From the NCBI GenBank assembly GCA_951813615.1, contig OX638377.1:5243739-5307738 (forward strand): 64,000 bases of DNA, given 5' to 3'. Positions 17,752 to 29,713 of the stretch are shown piece by piece. The translations under genes and the position numbers were made by a program. A model generated the notes under the pieces. The model was given only the letters and a program-made list of their open reading frames with translations. It had not been told where the DNA came from and made no database searches. The stretch comes from an uncultured Latescibacterota bacterium. GTDB lineage: Bacteria; Latescibacterota; UBA2968; UBA8231. How positions within the stretch are numbered: position 1 is the first letter of the stretch; every line of letters begins with the position of its first letter.

Positions 17752-18200
17752 TGCAATTTGAGAAGCTCACTTAGCGAGTGAATCGTAAAATCGGGATCGC
17801 CCGTTTCGTCGTTGGGCACAAGATCGGCGAATTTCCCATTTTGGAACCAAACCGTTGTGGCTCCTGCTGCATTGCCCCACGCAATCCCTCGTATTATGTA
17901 GTCATCGACGACAACGACCTCGTTAGCTTTAAGATCGACTTTTCTTAACAGGGCCTCATATTCCTTTGATTTGGCGTCGCCGCTTGCGGTGAAGACGATC
18001 TCCTCGAAATGGTCGAGAATACCCTGCTCTCGCAATGCCTCTATACGAGCCTCTTCCTCATCCGCAGGGGAGACGGATACTATACTAAGTCGGTACTGCT
18101 CAGCCAGCGTTTTTACGACGGGGATTGCGTCGGGGAAAAAATCGTCGGTTTCTCGATCGTATAGAGTGCGACCATAGTCAAAGATTATCATCTTAGCCAC
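17748..18200 (-). CDS. HAD-like hydrolase, copy 1
   Basis: A 150-residue HAD-fold protein. Motif I is IIFDYGRTLYD, motif II falls in SIVSVSP, a lysine follows in DAKSKEYEALLRK, and motif IV is VVVVDDYIIRG. In motif I the second aspartate of DxD is glycine. The cap is minimal. The start is taken as GTG 18200, because AAGGGG lies about 9 nt upstream and the same GTG with a similar site exists in copy 2 at 24152-24616. An upstream in-frame extension comes from a different gene fragment. Its 3' end overlaps the NUDIX gene. Confidence 0.78.
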   Translation of the reverse strand: MAKMIIFDYGRTLYDRETDDFFPDAIPVVKTLAEQYRLSIVSVSPADEEEARIEALREQGILDHFEEIVFTASGDAKSKEYEALLRKVDLKANEVVVVDDYIIRGIAWGNAAGATTVWFQNGKFADLVPNDETGDPDFTIHSLSELLKLQ

Positions 18201-18229
18201 GGCGAATATCCCCTTTGGTCTCTGAGCGA

Positions 18230-18350
18230 GCGGGAGTAAAACCAAATTTGTCCCTGACCGATAGGATTCCAAATACTTACCCCGGACACCAGGACCGAGA
18301 TCTCCACGGCGATATTCTGGACGCAGATCGTCTAGATCAGCCTTCTTCAT
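18230..18350 (-). pseudogene. Fragment of a small DLRPEY-type protein fused in frame to HAD copy 1
   Basis: From an ATG at 18350 the frame reads MKKADLDDLRPEYRR, then GPGVRGKYLESYRSGTNLVLL, the N-terminal half of a small family of antitoxin-like proteins that I know only by pattern. After about residue 40 the pattern stops and the frame continues into the HAD gene. It looks like a truncated gene joined at a recombination point. The spacer further upstream (to 18462) has no other convincing gene. Confidence 0.5.
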
Positions 18351-18462
18351 AGATTTTCCTTTGCTACTCGCCCGTCCTCGTCGTGATTATTTCGTGATCG
18401 TTCGTTGTCTCCAGATTGGGTCTTTTCGAGAAGCCCAAAACTGACATGGGTCCTATTCATCC

Positions 18463-18834
18463 TTAAACCTCCACATTGACATAGAAATTGACGATGTTCC
18501 TATCTGGATCGCGAAACCAAACGGACCGGCGTCCCCACGGTTGGGTTGTCGGCGGTTTAACAATCTCAACATTCATGGCCTGCAAACGCTCAAATTCTTG
18601 GTCGACGTCTTCTACCTCAAACTCGATAGTATAGCTACCATATCCAGCCCCCTTCAGGCTTCCATGAGCCATCTCCTCCATGTGTTCTGAGGAGAAGATG
18701 GACAACTCTGCACCCTCCGTTGGAATGATCTTAAATACATCCCCTTCTTCTGGTTCGAGTTTTAGGATCTCTCGGTAGAAAGCGCACAATCTGGGCACGT
18801 TCTGTGTTACTATACAAATGCCATTGAACCGCAT
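18463..18834 (-). CDS. VOC (glyoxalase-like) superfamily protein
   Basis: A 123-residue single VOC module: FNGICIVTQNVPRLCAFYREIL start, YTIEFEVEDVDQEFERLQA in the second half and WGRRSVWFRDPDRNIVNFYV at the end, the usual closing D-P-D/E-G/R-N motif. The first metal position is Asn/Cys rather than His, so a standard glyoxalase I activity is unlikely; a binding or resistance protein is possible. GGAGG lies 7 nt before the ATG. It is a single-gene unit in the cassette-like array. Confidence 0.82.
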   Translation of the reverse strand: MRFNGICIVTQNVPRLCAFYREILKLEPEEGDVFKIIPTEGAELSIFSSEHMEEMAHGSLKGAGYGSYTIEFEVEDVDQEFERLQAMNVEIVKPPTTQPWGRRSVWFRDPDRNIVNFYVNVEV

Positions 18835-19192
18835 GAGGAACCTCCAGAAGTCTCAGTGATTTTTTGGACGGCATAGGACGCACCACCGCCTTTGGGTGAG
18901 AAAAGTCACGGCTTGCGTACAACGGGTTGCCGGTTTGCGAACCCCGAGCTTGTCAAGGAGTTGCCGAAGACCAAAGCGTAGACAACGCCGCCGCGCAACA
19001 CCGATGTGTTATGTGTCGTAAAAAAATGCGATAGCCTACAAGACGGATCCCCAAGCGAAATCAGATCAGCTCGATGGGTACACTTGTCAAGCATAAGAAA
19101 ATCGCCGTGTTGTCTGAACACTATTCTCCTCAAAGAGTTCAGGGAACAACGACTTGTCTATGTTCACAGTTTTGTCCGGTCTGTAAGCCCGT
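18835..19192 (-). other. 358-bp spacer without a convincing gene
   Basis: Apart from the attC-like sequence in its first half, the stretch holds only a 75-codon minus-strand frame (18906-19133) with no known pattern and poor codon use. At 19098-19118 it contains a 21-bp sequence also found at 24128-24148 just after HAD copy 2 (AATCGCCGTGTTGTCTGAAC part), one more shared junction fragment in this region. Confidence 0.5.
18915..19014 (-). repeat. attC-like spacer
   Basis: On the minus strand a 5' heptamer ACATAAC (19008-19014) is followed by CGGTGTTG. About 80 bp later CGGCAACCC precedes GTTGTAC (18915-18921). The arms CGGTGTTG and CAACCCG are imperfect inverted copies. The 3' part carries GGGTTCGCAAACCGG, shared with the spacer at 17206. 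Neither heptamer is a perfect core, so this is a weaker candidate than the site at 22164. Confidence 0.35.
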
Positions 19193-19765
19193 TTATTCTT
19201 CGCCCGCCAATAGTCGGATTCGCTGCACAAGGTCATCTATGCTGGGTGAGTATTGCCCCTCTGTTGAGACGTGAACTGTGGGCACGTTGAAATCTGGAGC
19301 TGTATAGTCGTCAGGCGGCGACATCTCACCTGTTTTCCTGTAGATTTCAACGCGCTTATCCCCGTGGTAGAACTCCCGATTAGGATCATCCAGACCCCGC
19401 TGGAGATGGCGCTTAGCCGCCACCATCCCGTCAACGGAGCATACGACAATGAAAGGAGTACACAATTCAAGGATCTTGGGCATCCTTGGTTCCCAAACCC
19501 TGTGCTGAAAGGCCGCCTCAATAACGACAGAGATTTTACCGGCGAGATACTGATTTACTACCTCGAAGAAAAAATTGGAGACTACGCCATTGGTGTCCGG
19601 CGGAAGCTGATCGTGCTTGACGCCATGGGTATTGACATAGCCCTCCTTGATCTCGTCGCGACTGATAACCGGCATCCACAATCGCTCAGCGAGCCTCTTG
19701 GCTAGACTCGTCTTCCCGGATCCCGGTCGGCCTGTGACGATAATGCATTTGGGTTTACTGCTCAT
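19193..19765 (-). CDS. P-loop kinase-like ATPase
   Basis: A 190-residue protein with Walker A VTGRPGSGKTSLAKRLAE near the N-terminus, an ISRDEIKEGY segment as in zeta-toxin and chloramphenicol-phosphotransferase-like kinases, and an EAAFQHRVWEPR block that may act as the lid/Walker B region. It should phosphorylate a small molecule such as a nucleoside, sugar or antibiotic; the target is not clear. The ATG overlaps the stop of a DUF2283 3' fragment. Confidence 0.8.
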   Translation of the reverse strand: MSSKPKCIIVTGRPGSGKTSLAKRLAERLWMPVISRDEIKEGYVNTHGVKHDQLPPDTNGVVSNFFFEVVNQYLAGKISVVIEAAFQHRVWEPRMPKILELCTPFIVVCSVDGMVAAKRHLQRGLDDPNREFYHGDKRVEIYRKTGEMSPPDDYTAPDFNVPTVHVSTEGQYSPSIDDLVQRIRLLAGEE

Positions 19766-19833
19766 GGTTCTGGCTCTTTCACAGGAGCAAGATCAAGGCT
19801 GCGTAAAACCTCGTTGATCTGAGCCACCGTCAT
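19762..19833 (-). pseudogene. DUF2283 gene, 3' fragment
   Basis: The minus-strand frame MTVAQINEVLRSLDL, then APVKEPEP and stop, matches the C-terminal end of the complete DUF2283 gene at 24639 (MTAAQINEVLRSLDLSPMKEED). The N-terminal half of the same gene lies about 1 kb away at 20726-20839, on the other side of the epimerase gene. Its stop TGA overlaps the ATG of the kinase gene. Confidence 0.75.
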
Positions 19834-19890
19834 AATTCGCTCTTCAGCGATGCGTTGACCTCAACAGTCGAAATTATTTTCTATGACTGG

Positions 19891-20706
19891 TTACGCGTCA
19901 TAGTCGTGATTATCTTCCGCTCGATCCTGTGGTACAAATCCCACCTTTCGCTGTGCATCTGAGATGTCCACCCAACGTAGGTCGTTGTTCGACATGCCGT
20001 AGAAAATCTCAAATCGCAAACTACCATCCGCATTGATGCACCGCTCGAATATCTGGACAATATCGCGTTGGCTCACATAGATGTCGGCACCCTGTGGCGG
20101 ACGAGGACGATCGCGCTCGACTTGACCGATACGGACGCAGATACACGACAACCCATGACGATGGGCGTAGGTTCGCGCCAAAGACTCCGTCCACACTTTG
20201 GTTGCGGCGTATAGACCCCTCGGTTCCGCGGGTATATTGGGCGTAATCATCTCTACATTGTCCGGTATATCTGCATGTCGGCGTTCCATCATCGCCTTGT
20301 ACGGCTCTTGCTCGCGATGTCCTTGCGAGACCATAATGCTGCTGGCGGCGACGATACGCGCAACGCCGGTGGCTTTGCACGCTTCAAAGACATTATAAGT
20401 CCCAATGATGTTGTTGTTCAGTAAACTCTCCCAACTCTCCCCGCTCGGATCCGCGGCAAGGTGTGCGACAACATCCATACCTTCAACAGCGCGTCGTACC
20501 TGATCAAAATCAGCCATATCGCACAGGATGAATTTCTCGTCTGGAATTTCGAGCGTCCATGACCCCGGAACGCGAACGGATGGCTCCAATTTGTAGTCGA
20601 GTGCATACGCATCGTACTTTTCCGGTTGTTCTTGCAGCCGTTTGTAGGTCATGTAACCAATCTGCCCAGTTGCACCTGTAACAAGCACCCTCTTGGGTGT
20701 AGCCAT
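19891..20706 (-). CDS. NAD-dependent epimerase/dehydratase (extended SDR) family protein
   Basis: A 271-residue extended SDR. The Rossmann motif VTGATGQIGYMTYKRL lies at the N-terminus, a CDMADFDQV adenine-binding region near residue 60, and DVVAHLAAD is the usual strand 4 motif. Ser in ASSIMVS is followed by YAATKVWTE, the YxxxK active site. AAAGGAAA precedes ATG 20706. It probably acts on an NDP-sugar or uronic acid. It is inserted between two halves of a DUF2283 gene. Confidence 0.86.
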   Translation of the reverse strand: MATPKRVLVTGATGQIGYMTYKRLQEQPEKYDAYALDYKLEPSVRVPGSWTLEIPDEKFILCDMADFDQVRRAVEGMDVVAHLAADPSGESWESLLNNNIIGTYNVFEACKATGVARIVAASSIMVSQGHREQEPYKAMMERRHADIPDNVEMITPNIPAEPRGLYAATKVWTESLARTYAHRHGLSCICVRIGQVERDRPRPPQGADIYVSQRDIVQIFERCINADGSLRFEIFYGMSNNDLRWVDISDAQRKVGFVPQDRAEDNHDYDA

Positions 20707-20725
20707 ACGTTTATTTTCCTTTCGT

Positions 20726-20839
20726 TTATGGGTTCGACTCTGTTCGTACACTTTCCACACCCGAAGCGGACGATAAGTACAGATATGCGGCTAAGGGCTT
20801 CCCTTTACGGTAGGTAATTTCCAAATAGTGTTCTCGCAA
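20726..20839 (-). pseudogene. DUF2283 gene, 5' fragment
   Basis: Reads REHYLEITYRKGKPLAAYLY, then LSSASGVESVRTES, before an abrupt change and a stop, nearly the same as the start of the complete gene at 24908. The ATG has been altered by a small deletion, so only a TTG could start it. Together with 19762-19833 it forms one DUF2283 gene split by the epimerase unit. Confidence 0.75.
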
Positions 20840-20864
20840 TTAGCTCCTCAGCGATGCGTTGACC

Positions 20865-21656
20865 TCAACAGTTTCCGTCCTCCAGATCAGAGCAGGGCTG
20901 CACTCGATACCAATACCGGTACGACTCGCTGAAACCATACTTGCGTTGTAGAGTTAGGGCTGGCTCGTTGTTCGCCATCACCTGCAGGTAGGCCAGACGC
21001 GCCCCTTGCTCAAATCCCCAGTTGAGGCGGGCCTCAAGGAGCCCACGGCCGAAGCCCTGACCCCGATGCTCGGGATCGACCAGCAAATCAAAGAGCCCCA
21101 CGATTGAGCCCGAAACAACGGCGCGGGCGCAGCCTACGGATTGGCCATCAGTCCGGACGACAACATAGGCCGAAGGAGTGGAGATCGCGTTGAGCAAACT
21201 GCGAAATACCTCAGCGTGCTGACTGCGACCGGACAGACGTATCCAGGTTTCGAGCCACTCATCTGTTGCACCTTCGTATAGCGATATGGCAGGGGAACTA
21301 GCGGAACGGGTCTCAAGCCGCTTGGTTTGAACCAGTGTATCGGCGTCTCTCGAGTACTGAAGCTGCGCCAAGGTCTCGTCCAAATCCCCAGGTTGACAGG
21401 CAGGAAAAATCTTAAAAAGACAAGGTAGCGATGCCCGCGCGTACGCCGCTTCACAATGAACCAACTTCTCCTGGAGCGGGGTTGTGGATTCATACAGCGG
21501 GACTACACAGTTGGCACGGCGACTGTACCCCTCAGCCATTCGAACGATCCAGCCGTCGTAGAACTCTGTTTGCAGCGCGGGTAGCCCGTTCAGCGCCGCC
21601 TCTTCCAGCCTTGCTACAAGCTCTGGACTGTTCGTTGAATCAAGTGCTGTAGTCAT
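20865..21656 (-). CDS. GNAT N-acetyltransferase with N-terminal extension
   Basis: A 263-residue protein. The C-terminal 120 residues form a GNAT domain: GLFDLLVDPEHRGQGFGRGLL is motif A with the Q/R-x-x-G-x-G/A acetyl-CoA loop, followed by LAYLQVMANNEPALTLQRKYGF. The N-terminal 130 residues (EEAALNGLPALQTEFYDGWIVR) are typical of a family of two-domain GNAT proteins of unknown substrate. The gene is followed by GTTGAGGTCAAC, also found after the epimerase gene, so both units end in the same short sequence. Confidence 0.85.
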   Translation of the reverse strand: MTTALDSTNSPELVARLEEAALNGLPALQTEFYDGWIVRMAEGYSRRANCVVPLYESTTPLQEKLVHCEAAYARASLPCLFKIFPACQPGDLDETLAQLQYSRDADTLVQTKRLETRSASSPAISLYEGATDEWLETWIRLSGRSQHAEVFRSLLNAISTPSAYVVVRTDGQSVGCARAVVSGSIVGLFDLLVDPEHRGQGFGRGLLEARLNWGFEQGARLAYLQVMANNEPALTLQRKYGFSESYRYWYRVQPCSDLEDGNC

Positions 21657-21684
21657 AGGCTTCGGTATGTCTAGATTCGTTCAT

Positions 21685-22092
21685 TCATCCTGGCTCAACT
21701 TGACCAATTTTCGCTATGATCGAGCGCAAATCCGGGTCTGAAAACTGATCTGACTTCAATACCTTGCCGTCCTCCCTGAATATGGGCTTACCCTGCTCAT
21801 CTAGCTTGCTCATGTTGCTGCGGTGGACTTCAGCAAAGAGCTCTGCGGCAATGTCCTGCAGACCATGCGCAATGAACGTACCCAGCAGTACGTAAAGCAT
21901 GTCTGTAAGGGCGTCTGCGATCTCGACGATGTCGTGGTTATGTACGGCCGCTCGATACTCTTCTAGCTCTTCCAAAAACATCTGGATACGCCCTTGGCTT
22001 ATCTCCGCCGGCACCGTTGCCGTAGGCGTGCTCTGCATGTATGCTTGGAACACCTCGTGAAAACATTTTACGCTATCTAGCTGATCTTTCAC
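21685..22092 (-). CDS. Phosphoribosyl-ATP pyrophosphohydrolase-like (MazG-like) protein, copy 1
   Basis: A 135-residue all-alpha NTP pyrophosphohydrolase-like protein. EELEEYRAAVHNHDIVEIADALTDMLYVLLGT holds the E-E-x-x-E and E-x-x-D metal-binding motifs. The C-terminal HRSNMSKLDEQGKPI then GKVLK is characteristic of this subgroup. GTG 22092 is preferred as the start because AGGAG lies about 7 nt upstream. It should hydrolyse a nucleoside triphosphate, perhaps as house-cleaning or defence. A decayed near-copy lies at 25170-25575. Confidence 0.82.
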   Translation of the reverse strand: MKDQLDSVKCFHEVFQAYMQSTPTATVPAEISQGRIQMFLEELEEYRAAVHNHDIVEIADALTDMLYVLLGTFIAHGLQDIAAELFAEVHRSNMSKLDEQGKPIFREDGKVLKSDQFSDPDLRSIIAKIGQVEPG

Positions 22093-22263: not shown

Positions 22264-22950
22264 TCAGCCGGTTGAGCGCCGACTGACGCGTTTGTACTGA
22301 CCACCGAAAGATACGTTCATTCCAAAGTTAAAATTGTTGGCCCCTGATTCCGTCGCGACCAACCCGTCCGGACCAAACTCTAGCTCAAGGCGATATTCAC
22401 CGACGGGGGTCTCTTCCCGAAAGCTGGGGATCTCTTCCCGAAAGATGGTCGAATTGTTGATCACGGGCGCAACGAAGGCCAAATCTCCGATGTTAGGACC
22501 TCTCGACCGAGAAGTTCCCCAAAGGGCAAATCCCTCGACTCGAACGCGACCATCTGCAAGGATGGATACATCGAACTCCGCCTCCTCGTTCGGCCCTTCG
22601 CGCACGTAGTGCCCAGCTATGGTTTGTATAGGTGGCTCCGCTCCCACGAACGATACCGGAGCGTTCCATTCCGAGGCGATCGCCTCGTGTAACTCGTCAC
22701 GGAATTGCCGGACTTCTCCGAGAGTAAGCCCCTTGCTCTGGCTTGTCGTCCCGTCGTACTTGTCGTGACATTCAAGACATAGAAACACGAGGTTGTTTAA
22801 GGCGCTGTTACTCGCGTTCTGATCTAGGTGCGCTATCTGACCACTCTTGATCGCGGTGTCGCGAGACAGGCCAAAACACATCGCGCACCGACGTCGGCAT
22901 CGGAGCAGTACCTGTTCTTCGACAGCCTTTGGCGTTTTGGGTCGGCTCAT
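22264..22950 (-). CDS. HNH endonuclease domain protein
   Basis: A 228-residue protein. Residues 15-75 form an HNH nuclease: CRRRCAMC knuckle, then IAHLDQNASNSALNNLVFLC and LECHDKYD, giving the H-N-H residues and two CxxC zinc pairs. The remaining 150 residues have no recognisable domain; they are beta-rich (EFDVSILADGRVRVEGFALWG) and may sense or bind something. Small HNH proteins in such arrays may act on DNA in defence. A weak GTAGG lies before the ATG. Confidence 0.83.
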   Translation of the reverse strand: MSRPKTPKAVEEQVLLRCRRRCAMCFGLSRDTAIKSGQIAHLDQNASNSALNNLVFLCLECHDKYDGTTSQSKGLTLGEVRQFRDELHEAIASEWNAPVSFVGAEPPIQTIAGHYVREGPNEEAEFDVSILADGRVRVEGFALWGTSRSRGPNIGDLAFVAPVINNSTIFREEIPSFREETPVGEYRLELEFGPDGLVATESGANNFNFGMNVSFGGQYKRVSRRSTG

Positions 22951-23072: not shown

Positions 23073-23690
23073 TCATCTTATCCAGTCCTCTATGAACCTG
23101 ACATACTCAGGCACGGGCATCATTTGTAGATCTCTATCCCTAAAGCCCTCGGTTTTTCTCTTCTGATAGAAGTCCGCCATAAACTCGTTAAATTCCTCCC
23201 AAATCACGGTCCCACTAGGCAACTGTCCAATCCCCACCTCAACAAACCAGTTCCTCACCTGACGGACGACTTCCTCAGGTTTATCTTGGTGCCGCTTAAT
23301 GTCAGAATTCGACAGGTCAGACAAGGCTTTTTGGTACTCGTACTGTTCTGTTGCCAAGATCAAACACTGCTTTTGATTCAACAGGCCGCGAGAGAAGACC
23401 TTACAGCCGATGTCGAGACCCAGTTCAAAGGGCATGTTCATTCTGTAAGTCTCGCCCTTGAATGACGCCGACATCCTCGACAGATCATGTACACTGTATT
23501 TTGACTCACGTATCAATTCACAGATTCGATTGATCCGCGCAACTCCAGAGTCAAAAGTCTCCGAAGCAATCCTCACTGTCATGCCTGCTCGAACCACACT
23601 GAACAGCAGAGGTCTTAATAGGGGAATATACTCGTCATCGAAGGGGCAGTTGATGAAGACGTTGGTATGGAATTCTCCTCCGTCGTTCAC
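23073..23690 (-). CDS. TIR-like / nucleoside 2-deoxyribosyltransferase-like Rossmannoid protein
   Basis: A 205-residue protein. It begins VFINCPFDDEYIPLLRPLLF, followed by RIASETFDSGVARINRICELI, SKYSVHDLSRM and RMNMPFELGLDIG, whose Glu is placed like the catalytic glutamate of TIR and deoxyribosyltransferase folds. The C-terminal part is helical. Related proteins are common but, as far as I know, not assigned a function; NAD or nucleotide hydrolysis is plausible. GTG 23690 overlaps the stop of the DUF2188 gene (GTGA), so the two proteins are made together. Confidence 0.65.
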   Translation of the reverse strand: MNDGGEFHTNVFINCPFDDEYIPLLRPLLFSVVRAGMTVRIASETFDSGVARINRICELIRESKYSVHDLSRMSASFKGETYRMNMPFELGLDIGCKVFSRGLLNQKQCLILATEQYEYQKALSDLSNSDIKRHQDKPEEVVRQVRNWFVEVGIGQLPSGTVIWEEFNEFMADFYQKRKTEGFRDRDLQMMPVPEYVRFIEDWIR

Positions 23691-23902
23691 TTAGCCCGTT
23701 TCCATTTTTGTACGGACCCATCTCGTCTGTGGACGACGACATCCCCGCCCTCTGAGATTTTGATTGCGCTTTTTTCGGCAGCGGACTTGGTGCCGTAGAT
23801 TTTTGAAGCTTTGGAATTCCCTTCCTTTTTGACTGCCCAACCATCTTTTCTTGATATAACATGCACTCTCTTGCAACTGGTCGCTTGTAACTTTCTTGCC
23901 AT
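23687..23902 (-). CDS. DUF2188 domain protein
   Basis: A 71-residue basic protein of the DUF2188 type: VHVISRKDGWAVKKEGNSKAS, then SAAEKSAIKISEGGDVVVHRRDG and a basic tail, a small beta-alpha-beta-beta unit. AAGGA lies 7-8 nt before the ATG. It is the first gene of a two-gene operon with the TIR-like protein and has a near-consensus promoter. Its role is unknown; the strong coupling suggests an inhibitor, sensor or partner of the TIR-like protein. Confidence 0.82.
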   Translation of the reverse strand: MARKLQATSCKRVHVISRKDGWAVKKEGNSKASKIYGTKSAAEKSAIKISEGGDVVVHRRDGSVQKWKRAK

Positions 23903-23950
23903 GGTAGGTCCTTTCTCACCCTCGTAGGTGTTTATCTAAGTCTCCTAAAA

Positions 23951-24012
23951 ATTATAGCACACTGTTTGTACCCGAACAATTGATTCGGGTAATCGCCCTT
24001 ATCTGACCCGAA
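23951..24012 (-). promoter_or_regulatory. Promoter of the DUF2188/TIR-like operon with operator-like repeats
   Basis: On the minus strand TTGTTC (23974-23979) and a perfect TATAAT (23951-23956) are 17 bp apart. The -35 box lies inside a 21-bp inverted repeat with ACCCGAA arms (23970-23976 and, complemented, 23984-23990). A third ACCCGAA copy is at 24006-24012. The position strongly suggests binding of a repressor or activator. The rest of the gap to 24151 is AT-rich and holds no gene. Confidence 0.75.
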
Positions 24013-24151: not shown

Positions 24152-24616
24152 CTAACGAGACTGATCTAGAATTTTAGGAAGCTCACTTAGCGAGTGAATC
24201 GTAAAATCGGGATCGCCCGTTTCGTCGTTGGGCGTAAGGTCGGCGAATTTCCCATTTTGAAACCAAACCGTTGTGGCTCCTGCTGCATTGCCCCACGCAA
24301 TCCCTCGTATTATGTAGTCATCGACGACAACGACCTCGTTAGCTTTAAGATCGACTTTTCTTAACAGGTCCTCATATTCCTTTGACTTGGCGTCGCCGCT
24401 TGCGGTGAAGACGATCTCCTCGAAATGGTCGAGAATACCCTGCTCTCGCAATGCCTCTATACGGGTCTCTTCCTCATCCACAGGGGAGACCGATACGATA
24501 CTAAGTCGGTACTTCTCCGCTAGCGTTTTTACGACGGGGATTGCGTCGGGGAAGAAGTCGTCGGTTTCTCGATCATATAGGGTGCGGCCATAATCAAAGA
24601 TTATCATCTCAGCCAC
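24152..24616 (-). CDS. HAD-like hydrolase, copy 2
   Basis: A near-identical copy of the HAD protein at 17748-18200 with the same IIFDYGRTLYD and VVVVDDYIIRG motifs. The C-terminus differs in the last few residues (SELPKILDQSR). Initiation at GTG 24616 is supported by AGAGG about 9 nt upstream; ATG 24607 is possible. Unlike copy 1, it is not followed by a NUDIX gene. It follows the DUF2283 gene after 22 nt, so it may be expressed with it. Confidence 0.78.
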   Translation of the reverse strand: MAEMIIFDYGRTLYDRETDDFFPDAIPVVKTLAEKYRLSIVSVSPVDEEETRIEALREQGILDHFEEIVFTASGDAKSKEYEDLLRKVDLKANEVVVVDDYIIRGIAWGNAAGATTVWFQNGKFADLTPNDETGDPDFTIHSLSELPKILDQSR

Positions 24617-24638
24617 GGCGAATATCCTCTTCAAGAAA

Positions 24639-24908
24639 TCACACGGCTTCAAGCGGCGATAAGTCCTCCTCTTTCATAGGAGAAAGATCAAGGCTGCGTA
24701 AAACCTCGTTGATCTGCGCCGCCGTCATCTGCTCTGGTGCCGTGATTTCTAAACCAATGGGTTGATCTTCAGGGCCAAAATCCACTAATAAACCTGCATC
24801 TCTCGACTCTGTTCGTACACTTTTCATACCCGAAGCGGCCGATAAGTACAGATATGCGGCTAGGGGCTTCCCTTTACGGTAGGTAATTTCCAAATAGTGT
24901 TCTCGCAT
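24639..24908 (-). CDS. DUF2283 domain protein (complete copy)
   Basis: An 89-residue protein: MREHYLEITYRKGKPLAAYL, then LVDFGPEDQPIGLEITAPEQM with the beta hairpin typical of DUF2283, and a helical tail. GAGGAG lies 6 nt before the ATG. DUF2283 proteins are found in toxin-antitoxin-like pairs; here the partner is the DUF433 gene 10 nt upstream. Three further fragments of this gene lie in the window, so it belongs to a mobile or frequently duplicated unit. Confidence 0.85.
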   Translation of the reverse strand: MREHYLEITYRKGKPLAAYLYLSAASGMKSVRTESRDAGLLVDFGPEDQPIGLEITAPEQMTAAQINEVLRSLDLSPMKEEDLSPLEAV

Positions 24909-24918
24909 AATTAGCTCC

Positions 24919-25119
24919 TCAAGGAGAGTCCACGAGTTCCACCGCGTACTCAAGGGCGGCTCGTACATCCGCGTCGATAATGCCATATTCCTCACAGATT
25001 TCTTCCGGAGTTGCCCCTCCTGCGAGGTTCCCAATAATTCGATGCACTGGTACTCGGGTCTCCCGAATCACTGGCTTGCCATGACGGATTGAGGAATCGA
25101 TTATGATTCGTTCATTCAT
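24919..25119 (-). CDS. DUF433 domain protein (antitoxin-like)
   Basis: A 66-residue protein with the DUF433 helix-turn-helix pattern: IIIDSSIRHGKPVIRETRVP, then NLAGGATPEEICEEYGI and DVRAALEYA. DUF433 proteins usually act as antitoxins of PIN-like DUF5615 toxins; no such toxin is present, and a DUF2283 gene follows instead. GGAGG lies about 8 nt before the ATG. It is the first gene of a short operon reading into DUF2283 and HAD copy 2. Confidence 0.87.
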   Translation of the reverse strand: MNERIIIDSSIRHGKPVIRETRVPVHRIIGNLAGGATPEEICEEYGIIDADVRAALEYAVELVDSP

Positions 25120-25169
25120 TCTGTGACCTCCATGTCTTTAAGAATATAAGCACACAAATATCAAGTCAT

Positions 25170-25575
25170 TCATCCTGACTCAACTGGACCAATTTTCGCT
25201 ATGATCGAGCGCAAATCCGGATCTGAAAACTGATCTGACTTCAATACTTTGCCGTCCTCCCTGAATATCGGCTTGCCCTGCTCATCTAGCTTGCTCATGT
25301 TGCTGCGGTGGACTTCAGCAAACAGCTCTTCGGCAATGTCCTGCAGACCATGCGTGATGAACGTACCCAGCAATACGTAAAGCATGTCTGTAAGGGCGTC
25401 TGCGATCTCGACGATGTCGTGGTTATGTACGGCCGCTTGATCCTCTTCTAGCTCCTCCAAAAACATCTGGATTCGCGATACGCCCTTGGCTTATCGCCGC
25501 CGGCACCGTTGCCGTAGGCGTGCGCTCCATATATGCTTCCTCGTGAAAACATCTCACGCTATCGAGCTTATTTTA
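25170..25575 (-). pseudogene. Phosphoribosyl-ATP pyrophosphohydrolase-like protein, copy 2, 5' end decayed
   Basis: From ATG 25466 the frame encodes a 98-residue product almost identical to the C-terminal part of copy 1 at 21685. Recognisable N-terminal sequence continues upstream to about 25570 at the DNA level but is broken by small insertions and deletions, so the first 35 residues are lost. The metal-binding EELEE and EIADALTD motifs remain. No ribosome site is seen at the internal ATG. The gap from 25576 to 25693 holds nothing I can name. Confidence 0.75.
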
Positions 25576-25693: not shown

Positions 25694-26137
25694 TTATTTA
25701 CCTGCTATTTTTGCAGCTTCCTCAATCCACCGTTCCAAACTTTCTTTTGAAGTGTATTTGTACGCCTTGAAACCATTTGCTCCGATTTGGAATGGAATAG
25801 CTCCTGGTGATCCTGTTTGCTTATGTTGATCTTTCAGATGATGAATTTGAACTGCGACTAGTCCGTTTCCTCGTGCAAGTGATTGATCGATCTCGTAATT
25901 GATGTATCTGCGATTCGCAGTGCCATAGGTTACGCAGACCACTGTTACAGAAGTGTTTTGTAACGCCTTATCGATCATTGGTTTAATAACTTTGTCTCCC
26001 TTTTTCTTTGATTCTTCCCATAGGGATGCGTCTTGGAATCCAGCAGCGGCTGAGCCAATTATATTTGGCATACTTCGTATCTGGTTTACCTTCCATACAT
26101 ACTTATAGTGAAAGCTGAAGAATACACGCCTAGCCAT
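25694..26137 (-). CDS. ThsB-like TIR protein (DUF1863)
   Basis: A 147-residue member of the MTH538/DUF1863 TIR-like group used as ThsB sensors in Thoeris. It starts RRVFFSFHYKYVWKVNQIR, then FQDASLWEESKKKGDKVIKPM and TSVTVVCVTYGT, and NRRYINYEIDQSLARGNGL with the catalytic-type Glu. No ThsA gene is present nearby. GGAGG lies 7 nt before the ATG, and the gene follows the cyclase by 34 nt, so it is likely co-transcribed. Probable role: NAD-derived signalling or NAD depletion during phage infection. Confidence 0.85.
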   Translation of the reverse strand: MARRVFFSFHYKYVWKVNQIRSMPNIIGSAAAGFQDASLWEESKKKGDKVIKPMIDKALQNTSVTVVCVTYGTANRRYINYEIDQSLARGNGLVAVQIHHLKDQHKQTGSPGAIPFQIGANGFKAYKYTSKESLERWIEEAAKIAGK

Positions 26138-26171
26138 TCTATCCTCCGTTGAAATTCTAGTTTATCGATTT

Positions 26172-27347
26172 TTATAGATCGATATCAGTGGCTTTGGACA
26201 AAAGGGTATTCAAACCTGCTACATAAGCGTCGTACGATCTGGTAGGTTTCTTTGTGAGCCAAGTGAAGTCGAAAGCTGGACAAGTTCTTACATCAACTCC
26301 CCAGATATATGGGCTAACATGAATTCGTCCCTCTGGCCTATCCCAATCCCAATAAGAAGCGAAATAGTAGGGGGTTGAATATTCCTTCAATGACCACGAG
26401 CTCGCGCATTCTGGTAGCAGGCTATGAAGTTGGTCAATGGTCTCTCTTTTTGCAGCTACTAGCTGATCGTGACTCCTATCATCACTTCTGATTTGCCTCA
26501 AGCCATCGTCACTCAAAAATAGAACGGATATTTCTGACCAAGGCGGATTTTTCACTTTGGTGTCTTTGGCTCTACGAAGAACGTCAGGGAGTTGATCATT
26601 GGTCGCGCCAATAAAGGCCGCCTTATCGTGCTTTTCGAAGAGCACTATAGGGGGGGCTTTCTTCTGAGGAACCCCAAGTTTGTCAACTGAGAGGATTGGT
26701 GGTTCGATTTGCAAGTGCCATTTTTCAAGAGGTGGCTTCGATAGACCAAAGTTCACTATAGTGTCGTCTACCTGTATTTGACCTGTGACTGATCGGACCG
26801 GAATTAGAATATTATGTTTGGCAAGAATTTCGTGTATATCTTTGGGACACACATAACTCATCCCCGATACTAATTCGCGCTCTGTCGCTAATCTTCGAGC
26901 TAATAAGTCGTGTATAAGTAGTTGGTCTGGTGCCGCGCTGTCCATCACTCGCTGGGCAATATTAATTGCAGTTCCAGATACATTTTCCTGACCATAAGGG
27001 TCAGTAACAGTATCAAGTTCTCCAGAGTTTATACCGCACCTAACACCTACCGGAGGCTCATGAAGTTTCGCCCAACCAAGTATGCGCGCCGCGATATACA
27101 CAGCTGTATCCTCTCGTGTTTCAAAGGCTGATCCTTTGTTCCAGATAATAACAGCAGCTCCATCGCCAGTAGGAAGGATCAGTGAATTGTCATGCGCTCC
27201 CCGGCTGAGATTCTCTTGGAAAACTTCGCTGATAAGGTCGCGAATGACATCCAAGAATTCTTGCGCTAGTTCGGATTGAGCAGGATCGGATTCGACAGAG
27301 AATCCAGCAAGGTCAAAGAATACGATAGTTCCACTTCGACTATTCAT
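26172..27347 (-). CDS. Class III nucleotide cyclase with unassigned C-terminal domain (Pycsar-like)
   Basis: A 391-residue protein. Residues 5-185 form a class III cyclase domain with both metal-binding aspartates (Asp12 in FFDLAGFS, Asp62 in PTGDGAA), the GxNSGE strand and the NIAQRVMD motif with Asn129 and Arg133. The C-terminal 180 residues match no family I know; the end (IHVSPYIWGVDVRT, CPAFDFTW) looks like a compact sensor or binding domain. No membrane segment is seen. Neighbouring TIR genes suggest a Pycsar-type anti-phage function, making cCMP/cUMP or another cyclic nucleotide. The start is ATG 27347; a TTG at 27365 is possible. Confidence 0.82.
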   Translation of the reverse strand: MNSRSGTIVFFDLAGFSVESDPAQSELAQEFLDVIRDLISEVFQENLSRGAHDNSLILPTGDGAAVIIWNKGSAFETREDTAVYIAARILGWAKLHEPPVGVRCGINSGELDTVTDPYGQENVSGTAINIAQRVMDSAAPDQLLIHDLLARRLATERELVSGMSYVCPKDIHEILAKHNILIPVRSVTGQIQVDDTIVNFGLSKPPLEKWHLQIEPPILSVDKLGVPQKKAPPIVLFEKHDKAAFIGATNDQLPDVLRRAKDTKVKNPPWSEISVLFLSDDGLRQIRSDDRSHDQLVAAKRETIDQLHSLLPECASSWSLKEYSTPYYFASYWDWDRPEGRIHVSPYIWGVDVRTCPAFDFTWLTKKPTRSYDAYVAGLNTLLSKATDIDL

Positions 27348-27874
27348 GAATAAATCGACCTCCAATGCTAGGAGTATTATTTGTGATATCAGGCTATTTG
27401 ATCTGTTATATTCTTATGAATCAGCTCTTCTCATTTGCCTTGCAAGATTGTACTCGCAGGTTTCTCTGTCAGCATGAGTTGCATCAATCAAGTAGTTCAG
27501 AGTCGATGGATTATTCGCGATTTTTCCCCAAGGTACTACTGAGATCCTAACTTCATTTTCGAGAAGATTATCGATAATGCGCGCAGGCATATATGGATAT
27601 CGCGATTCGTATTCACTTCTTGAATCAACCGTAGTCCAATTTGTTGTTTCTGGATACACTCTTTCTTTTTCTCCTGAGTGTGATGTGTTATAATATGAGC
27701 AATAGATACTTGGGAGATTTATAACAAGAATACCAGATTTCTTATTAACGGTGCCATCATACATACTTGAGTATATTTCCCAATCAATATATTTTCTTCT
27801 TGCTGTCTCTGTACCGATTAGTAAGATAGTCACTGTAGAATTGCGAAGATAGTTGTCTCGTATCAACTCTCTTA

Positions 27875-28816
27875 GAGCCTATACGAAAATTATGTTAATC
27901 GGTCGACGATCCGAAAAATGATGAGCACCGAAGCTACGTGAATTAATGCTTGGTAATGGGTACTTTTTTTCTCCCATCGGATCAGCAGTCGGCGGAACCG
28001 ATTATGCCAAGCATGGGTTCGTTCGACGACCCATCGCCGCGCCGGATGCTTCTTTTTGACGGGCCTCTTGGCCCTTTCGGCTTCACTCTTGGCTACGTGT
28101 AGATGATAGTCGCGTTCCTCGACTCCTTCGATGACATCGTCGTAGTTATAGCCTTGGTCCAGACACAGATGATGCAAACGATAGACGACTTTCTCCGGCC
28201 TTTTCACCACGAGGCCATCCAACGTCGCCAGCGCGACCGTTTTGTCATGCGTATTCGCGCCGGTTATTTCCACCGCCAGCGGCGCACCACGCTGGTCGGT
28301 CAACACCGACCGTTTGGTGCCCGTTTTACTCCGATCCACCGGGGAAGGACCCGTCGCTTCGCCGCCCAACGGCGCTTTGGTAATCACCCCGTCGAGGGCT
28401 TGCCATTTCCACGCAATGCCCACCTGCGTATCATAGTAGTGCAGCAGGGTTTGCCAAGCGTGGAGAAACACGCCTTGTTGAACCCAGTGTCGAAACCGGC
28501 CATGCACGGTCGATCCGGGGGCGTAGGTTTCCCGCGGAATAACCTGCCATTGACAGCCGCTGCGTAACACAAAGATAATGGCGTCGAAAAGGACGCGATT
28601 GGGCGTGGACGGACGCCCGACGGTGCCGGGTGGTTTGTCCGGCCCCAGAATCGGGGCAATCAAATCCCACAACGCATCCGGGGTACGCCAGATCGTATCC
28701 AGCGAATCGGTCTTGGTGGCCATGGCTTTCCTCCTCTTGGTTGAGGGCAAATGATACGGAAAGCGTAGGTCGCCAAGACCTTGTTATCAACTGGAAAGCA
28801 ATTTTCGTATAGGCTC
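27875..28816 (-). mobile_element. IS5-family insertion sequence, IS427 type, intact
   Basis: The 942-bp element has perfect 17-bp terminal inverted repeats (GAGCCTATACGAAAATT at 27875-27891 and its complement at 28800-28816). A 3-bp target duplication TTA flanks it at 27872-27874 and 28817-28819. GAG/CTC ends and a short TNA target match the IS427 group. It carries one complete transposase gene in the same direction as the interrupted TIR gene. The perfect ends and clean duplication point to recent insertion. Confidence 0.92.
27890..28723 (-). CDS. IS427-type transposase
   Basis: A 277-residue DDE transposase. It has an N-terminal WDLIAPILGP region with an HTH-like LRSGCQWQVIP segment. Catalytic residues are Asp in WQALDGVITKAP, Asp in LCLDQGYNYDDV and Glu in WVVERTHAWHNRFRR. 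The GPSPVDRSKTGTKRS block is characteristic of the group. GAGGAGG lies 6-7 nt before ATG 28723. All motifs are intact and the frame is unbroken, so it is likely active. Confidence 0.92.
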   Translation of the reverse strand: MATKTDSLDTIWRTPDALWDLIAPILGPDKPPGTVGRPSTPNRVLFDAIIFVLRSGCQWQVIPRETYAPGSTVHGRFRHWVQQGVFLHAWQTLLHYYDTQVGIAWKWQALDGVITKAPLGGEATGPSPVDRSKTGTKRSVLTDQRGAPLAVEITGANTHDKTVALATLDGLVVKRPEKVVYRLHHLCLDQGYNYDDVIEGVEERDYHLHVAKSEAERAKRPVKKKHPARRWVVERTHAWHNRFRRLLIRWEKKSTHYQALIHVASVLIIFRIVDRLT

Positions 28817-29030
28817 TTATGGTTTGGGCAGGTAAGTTCTCATCGATATCACCTGTGTCCACAGACATATCGATGAAAATTTCACACTGGGAATTTATCC
28901 TCAATAATTCGTTCTTGTAATACCAGTCGTTGTCATGGTGGTAACTGATAAAAATCCTATGCATAGTGTACTCTCTCCTTGCAAATAATCTCTTTAGTTA
29001 TATGACCATGACCAAATTTGATGAAGGAGT

Positions 29031-29576
29031 TTATCCAGCCTTTCTAAGCCACTGTCGCAAAGGTGTTGCTCTATTCTTCACATGATCATGGACTATCCAT
29101 TCAGCGTTATCTCTCCCTTTTATCCTTCCCCGTACAATTCGCTGATACAAGCCCAAATATTCTTGTCGCGCCCACTGTTGATCAGTGCTGTCTGTTGTAG
29201 TCGGGAAAAGCGCTATCTGACGGGTATTCTTCTCGCCATCAGCAAGACCAAGTTCCCAAGGAATCCAACGACTACCCTTGCTGTTAATTGTTACAAATAC
29301 TACGAAGAGGGGACATGATTTTATTGTAGAACGCAATATTTCGGCTGTTTCGCGATTAGGGTGATTTGGCAGCCGCTGGTCGTCTTTATCGATATATACC
29401 GATCCGCCATGATTCTGTAGAATAGAGATTATAGCTGAAAGATATTCAGCATCCCGCGACGAATGTGCGAGAAAAACGGTCTTACCAATCTTTGAGGCCG
29501 ATGCCTCCTTTAGCATTACCGATTCATTTAGATGCTGACGGGATCTTTCGAGGTCTCCAAATGTTGCGAAATTCAC
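29031..29576 (-). CDS. TIR domain protein
   Basis: A 181-residue protein with one TIR domain (about residues 32-150): TVFLAHSSRDAEYLSAIISIL, then GSVYIDKDDQRLP and SCPLFVVFVT, and SRWIPWELGLADG, in which Glu sits in the position of the catalytic NADase residue. The N-terminal 30 residues are helical. The likely starts are GTG 29576 or TTG 29579; a short upstream frame stops exactly there. It is the first gene of the cyclase/TIR cluster and lies 31 bp from the left end of the IS1595-type element, which may have separated it from its promoter. Confidence 0.83.
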   Translation of the reverse strand: MNFATFGDLERSRQHLNESVMLKEASASKIGKTVFLAHSSRDAEYLSAIISILQNHGGSVYIDKDDQRLPNHPNRETAEILRSTIKSCPLFVVFVTINSKGSRWIPWELGLADGEKNTRQIALFPTTTDSTDQQWARQEYLGLYQRIVRGRIKGRDNAEWIVHDHVKNRATPLRQWLRKAG

Positions 29577-29713
29577 CAAGTTGCCTTACCCCCAATGGAA
29601 TTTAATGATAGGCTCATTATGGATTCCGGGGAGTTGTCTTGAAGGGGTAATCCCACCGGCTTATCTTGGTGCTGTGCGCCCTTTTTCCTTGCCTTCCAAT
29701 CTGGCTTTTCACC

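Follow-up and report, generated by a model that had tools for sequence, protein, structure and literature searches.

Within the window, the 64,000-nucleotide stretch of an uncultured Latescibacterota genome analysed here, a gene for a small DUF2188 protein is followed on the minus strand by an overlapping gene for a second protein, referred to here as the effector, which has the predicted fold of the TIR/deoxyribohydrolase (DrHyd) superfamily. The two genes are obligately linked and move between genomes as a unit, from which the effector has been lost repeatedly with DUF2188 kept. We put at roughly 0.58 the probability that the pair is a mobile conflict cassette, in which the effector would be an N-glycosidase of NAD+ or a nucleotide with Glu89 as its catalytic residue, checked by DUF2188 in a toxin–antitoxin-like manner.

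The gene pair

The DUF2188 gene (positions 23687–23902, minus strand, ATG start) encodes 71 residues and the effector gene (23073–23690, minus strand, GTG start) 205 residues, with an overlap of 4 nt, GTGA. A sequence-only reading of the window had given both open reading frames and this overlap correctly; its interval, 23687–24012, took in DUF2188 and the promoter only, and the partner gene runs on to 23073. The 71-residue protein matches the Pfam profile PF09954 (E = 9e-14; 51.8 bits, cut-off 22) and the PADLOC candidate PDC-S16 (E = 4e-14), the two labels under which DUF2188, an otherwise uncharacterised family, was known before, and it is present as one copy only in the 6.27-Mb genome. Its predicted model (pLDDT 83.8) gave nothing significant in a fold search of the PDB, the best match being AcrIF5 at a Z-score of 4.9, which carries no evidential weight; sequence searches of solved structures with DUF2188 and with the effector returned no match of weight for either. 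DUF2188 partners are mostly basic, with a median net charge of +8, which is odd for a proteic antitoxin and suggests contact with nucleic acid or the ribosome.

Linkage of the two genes across genomes

A scan of GTDB genomes yielded at least 552 confirmed effector relatives, and the neighbours of the best 80 of these were analysed. All 80 have DUF2188 upstream, which rules out a chance or artefactual pairing and bears out the conserved adjacency of DUF2188 and a TIR-like gene that had been proposed from the window. A complete DUF2188 open reading frame lies directly upstream in 77, at a spacing in relatives of mostly −26 to +8 nt; in one of the others (L052) DUF2188 is found about 300 nt upstream, and in two (L034 and L094) a contig edge falls within it. 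These 80 units are spread over Pseudomonadota, Bacteroidota, Chlorobiota, Acidobacteriota, Chloroflexota, Cyanobacteriota, Planctomycetota, Verrucomicrobiota and other phyla.

Beyond the nearest relatives, genomes were sampled evenly from one order (150 genomes) and three classes (369, 395 and 385). Within the order, DUF2188 occurs in 33 genomes and the effector in 3, each time with DUF2188. The order and class surveys added 16 further full-length effectors, every one with a small open reading frame just upstream; 5 of these frames encode DUF2188, and the other 11 encode small proteins that are mostly rich in Lys/Arg. The effector members on viral contigs likewise have a small upstream open reading frame (11 of 11), and no effector lacking a small partner was found among the full-length members with readable upstream DNA. 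Homologues regularly lacking DUF2188, which had been named in advance as one of two observations that would refute the proposal, are thus confined to a distant clade, where another small basic protein takes its place. The effector is present in about 1–2% of genomes in the three classes and in 22% of those in the window's phylum; 17 plasmid records match it, and a search of phage records gave no effector-family match. Distances between DUF2188 sequences correlate with those between effectors (Mantel r of 0.54; permutation maximum 0.18), as expected of co-inherited partners, a correlation that linkage alone would equally produce.

Predicted fold and putative active site of the effector

Searches of Pfam, NCBIfam and PADLOC gave no convincing match for the effector, nor did NCBIfam and PHROGs for its relatives. 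None of the canonical TIR models (Pfam TIR, TIR_2 and ThsB_TIR) matches the window protein above its curated cut-off, and CAP12-PCTIR_TIR weakly matches 6 of 61 effector relatives, with a best E-value of 0.0035, below Pfam TIR thresholds. An AF2 model built from the alignment of the 61 relatives has a pLDDT of 90.8 and a pTM of 0.89. Its top Foldseek matches in the PDB are SPARTA TIR domains (E = 1e-4), followed by other TIR domains and nucleoside deoxyribosyltransferase, and the best structural match by VIA-align is DNPH1 (Z-score of 13.6 and r.m.s.d. of 2.6 over 127 aligned residues), with SPARTA TIR and AbTir both at a Z-score of 12.8. Residues 4–156 make up the part that shares the DNPH1 fold, and residues ~157–205 form additional C-terminal helices that are barely covered by the structural matches. 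The model gives the effector the Rossmannoid fold of the TIR/DrHyd (NDT, DNPH1) superfamily, and its resemblance to DNPH1, SPARTA TIR and AbTir upholds the TIR/deoxyribosyltransferase-like character first assigned to the protein from its sequence. TIR, DrHyd and SLOG have been grouped as nucleotide-processing Rossmannoid domains, many of which are NAD+-consuming immune effectors (PMC9503650), and DUF4062 has been added to that grouping as TIR-like NADases (PMC13174449).

Unvarying among the 61 relatives are N14, D18, R52, H68, R83, N85, E89, S124, D125 and D130, part of which sit inside the motifs by which these relatives had been fetched. In a recount free of motif selection, comprising the window protein and 22 members obtained by protein or HMM search (n = 23), the unvarying positions are N14, R52, H68, D69, S71, R83, N85, E89, S124, D125, D130 and H134. 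Because polar residues are unvarying also in the set obtained without motif selection, the effector has an enzyme-like pattern of conservation. E89, N85, R83, D69, R52 and N14 vary little or not at all in either set, and three of them fall in the conserved motif R83-x-N-M-P-F-E89-L-G, by which E89 would occupy the position of the catalytic glutamate of the TIR/DrHyd superfamily.

Transfer of the pair and loss of the effector

Homology between the DNA of the window and that of a second genome carrying the unit (G032) spans 895 bp (88%); it begins 62 nt ahead of the start of DUF2188 and ends with the stop of the effector, and the flanks beyond are unrelated. Since little DNA outside the two genes is homologous between genomes, the pair is mobile as a cassette. 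The adjacent HNH gene (22264–22950) was considered as a third component and ruled out, since the homology with G032 stops at the effector stop.

Seven genomes of the window's phylum contain an intact DUF2188 gene without an intact effector. In six of these same-class genomes (L014, L015, L017, L202, L203 and L204) an intact DUF2188 of the window type precedes a deleted effector, with breakpoints that mostly differ, and in the seventh (L207) no effector follows. The flanking DNA of L014 and L015 is common to L004, which retains the whole unit. That DUF2188 outlasts the effector, and not the reverse, agrees with the likeness to a toxin–antitoxin unit noted in the sequence-only reading. No stops interrupt the orphan DUF2188 genes, whose dN/dS is low; as the losses may be recent and the low dN/dS may predate them, we make no claim of selection on DUF2188 after loss. 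The effector is moreover the larger deletion target (about 615 nt, against 216 nt for DUF2188), so that its retention through six to seven losses, with DUF2188 the gene retained each time, would be no more than mildly improbable as a chance outcome (about 0.74^6 = 0.16). In L207, an apparent MazE/MazF pair, identified by eye, replaces the effector after the orphan DUF2188 (positions 1468–2336 of that locus).

Exchange of partners and DUF2188 in other settings

In a quick tree of 113 effector members, the partner types require 3 changes, against about 21 in shuffles. Basic partners are confined to one effector clade (support 98; L009–L013, L016, L100, L104, L145, L147, L149–L151, L154, L156, L157 and L165–L169), in which two members carry DUF2188 together with the basic partner's helix. 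The motif I/V-x-x-A-V-x-x-V/Y/I near the C terminus is common to 10 of the 23 partners in the basic clade, against 0.3 in shuffles. This exchange provides a natural experiment, in which one effector comes under the control of unrelated small proteins.

DUF2188 genes that have no effector are neighboured by a 69-residue protein, a Multi_ubiq protein or other small open reading frames, and DUF2188 may serve several systems. In L131, L133, L125 and L126, for example, the effector-less DUF2188 adjoins either Multi_ubiq (PF14452) or the 69-residue protein, which is common to these loci and of unknown family. Two rare fusions indicate that DUF2188 acts as a module. One, in a Planctomycetota metagenome-assembled genome (L095), is a TIR_2–DUF2188 fusion located upstream of the effector, giving two TIR-type domains per unit. 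The other is in a Bryobacterales metagenome-assembled genome (L036), where the DUF2188 open reading frame immediately preceding the effector includes a ribosomal S19 domain (PF00203, E = 1e-29), whose C-terminal half is near-identical to the separate canonical S19 of the same genome.

The promoter and the ACCCGAA repeat

Upstream of DUF2188, and likewise on the minus strand, are a ribosome-binding site (AAGGA, 23909–23914), kept in close relatives, a −10 element TATAAT (23951–23956) that is preceded by TGC as in an extended −10 and reads TATATT in close relatives, and, 17 nt from it, a weak −35 element TTGTTC (23974–23979). The promoter named in the sequence-only reading, TTGTTC-N17-TATAAT, is therefore present with a perfect −10, but it matches the consensus at only 3 of 6 positions of the −35, owing to which a promoter consensus scan did not list it. 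The −35 lies, as had also been observed, within an inverted repeat, TACCCGAA-N7-TTCGGGTA (23969–23991), with a third ACCCGAA copy at 24006–24012.

The arrangement ACCCGAA-N1-20-TTCGGGT occurs once in the 6.27-Mb genome, and three of the seven ACCCGAA copies in the 64 kb fall within 43 bp. Simulation produced an 8-bp arm in about 1 of 100 sequences of a 150-nt stretch, whereas 7-bp arms were common (364 of 2000 stretches of 200 nt). The repeat is absent in six close relatives, comprising units of 80–87% protein identity and their effector-less copies, and inverted repeats show no excess across the effector family (17 observed against 13.6 expected); the view that the operator is a conserved part of the unit is accordingly rejected, lack of conservation of the repeat being the second observation that the sequence-only reading had named as a refutation. 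The repeat also falls outside the DNA shared with G032, which reaches only about 62 nt upstream of DUF2188. Operator control is at most a local feature of the window copy, which the repeat may still regulate.

Genomic neighbourhood

The flanking genes of 20 relatives (136 open reading frames) were compared with 137 open reading frames from 20 random loci of the same genomes, at a PADLOC threshold of E ≤ 1e-15. PADLOC matches were few in both sets, with no excess at the 20 loci that would indicate enrichment in defence islands; the sample is small and the control set noisy, containing one Gabija-like locus and helicases. Most of the flanking genes are housekeeping genes, and no ThsA, pAgo-APAZ or CD-NTase family of PADLOC is found among the 136 neighbours. 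With housekeeping flanks and PADLOC matches no commoner than at random, a role in phage defence has no contextual support outside the window; the case for it is built on the fold and on the TIR-rich neighbourhood of the window, where TIR genes are located 2–6 kb from the unit, and not on island enrichment.

This TIR-rich stretch (25694–29579) contains a ThsB-type TIR gene at 25694–26137 and another TIR gene at 29031–29579. Directly upstream of the former is a gene for a 397-residue protein (26172–27365) that is class III cyclase-like by a weak family match, and the two could be a Pycsar-like pair. Between them and the second TIR gene, a ThsB-like TIR gene (27414–28964) is apparently split by a transposase-like open reading frame (27890–28750), with profile positions 1–48 matching weakly in 28431–28964 and positions 52–96 in 27414–27866. 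The DUF2188 unit itself sits between the copies of a duplicated segment (17757–22046 and 24173–25538; 93–97% identity), the pieces of which contain a HAD-like hydrolase, a short stretch and a PRA-PH/MazG-like gene.

Proposed function

As a conflict cassette, the pair would arrest growth through its effector, a putative TIR/deoxyribohydrolase-superfamily enzyme that would use Glu89 as its catalytic residue to cleave an N-glycosidic bond of NAD+ or some other nucleotide. DUF2188, made just before the effector from the overlapping gene, is likely to bind the effector and keep it silent until it is released by phage infection or some other stress. The opposite direction of control, in which DUF2188 would be a sensor and activator, is the main rival to inhibition and in our judgement possible, though by no means probable. 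The effector would then be silent when alone and switched on by a phage or stress signal through DUF2188, giving an abortive-infection defence comparable with that of Swarozyc, which has a portal-sensing auxiliary domain. An interchangeable sensor or adaptor fits the fusions of DUF2188 to TIR_2 (L095) and S19 (L036) and its Multi_ubiq neighbours, the PDC-S16 match makes DUF2188 a defence candidate of PADLOC, and activation of a TIR-like NADase by an auxiliary domain has been described (PMC13174449). The absence of defence-island enrichment in 20 genomes speaks against a sensor, and the persistence of DUF2188 after effector loss in seven genomes fits a neutraliser better.

A metabolic role outside any conflict appears improbable. 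The effector would here be a nucleotide or deoxynucleotide N-hydrolase of DNPH1/NDT-like salvage or pool cleaning, with DUF2188 as a small accessory subunit, and both the best structural match, DNPH1, and the mostly housekeeping flanks could be read in this way; a gene that occurs patchily, is transferred as part of a cassette, has exchanged its partner and has been lost repeatedly is nevertheless unlike a metabolic one. Compatible with any of these readings, and itself decidedly unlikely, is a repressor, either DUF2188 or another protein, that would bind the ACCCGAA repeats over the −35 and so keep the unit off. In favour of it, the repeat exists, occurs once in the genome and overlaps the −35, but its absence from the closest relatives, the lack of an inverted-repeat excess in the family and its position outside the cassette DNA shared with G032 all argue against such a mechanism. 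A wider extension of the conflict-cassette reading, which is speculative and on balance unlikely, would make DUF2188 a plug-in regulator used generally in the conflict systems of bacteria, working with the new family of TIR/DrHyd effectors in this unit and, elsewhere, with TIR, multiubiquitin and further small genes. It would be replaceable in the effector family by basic peptides with a short I-x-x-A-V-x-x-V helix, and contact with RNA or the ribosome, for which the basic charge and the single DUF2188–S19 fusion could be cited, would tie release of the effector to translational state.

With these results, a predicted fold and a probable active site can be assigned to a large unnamed effector family of at least 552 relatives, together with a partner to which it is obligately linked, and the uncharacterised DUF2188 gains a specific and testable context. 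Both genes together span less than 900 bp and are easily cloned, so toxicity, neutralisation and NAD+ cleavage are directly testable.

Comparison with known systems

The pair had been taken as undescribed from the outset, and no description of DUF2188, PDC-S16, the effector-family motifs or the pairing was found in the literature searched, which consisted mostly of open-access journal papers. With DNPH1 and nucleoside 2'-deoxyribosyltransferase (DrHyd), the effector has in common the predicted fold and a glutamate motif, the position of the glutamate being deduced from the motif; it differs in its 14% identity, the lack of a family-model match, the extra C-terminal helices and the small protein partner. 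The TIR domains of SPARTA (TIR–APAZ) and AbTir share with it the fold, a conserved glutamate and predicted glycosidase activity on NAD+ or a nucleotide, whereas the effector is a stand-alone protein without Argonaute or APAZ, has a separate DUF2188 partner and falls below Pfam TIR thresholds.

Swarozyc, comprising DUF4062 TIR-like NADases (PMC13174449), is likewise TIR/NDT-like, found by remote similarity and spread horizontally in a patchy manner. In Swarozyc, however, the auxiliary domain is fused within a single protein, which has been tested as a defence; in the window the auxiliary function would reside in a separate small gene, and the effector has no match to DUF4062. The NDT-like effector of type II retrons (Eco1; PMC12405507) likewise stands alone and has its partner as a separate component, but the window unit contains neither reverse transcriptase nor ncRNA, its partner being the 71-residue protein. 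Type II toxin–antitoxin systems resemble the unit in their small first gene, overlapping second gene, mobility as a cassette and occurrence of the partner without the effector but not the reverse. The window unit differs from them in that its operator is not conserved, its partner is basic and, in one clade, gives way to an unrelated protein that is also basic, and the toxin-like role of its effector is a predicted one. The unit is filed outside any named system, with the TIR/DrHyd effectors and the toxin–antitoxin-like pairs.
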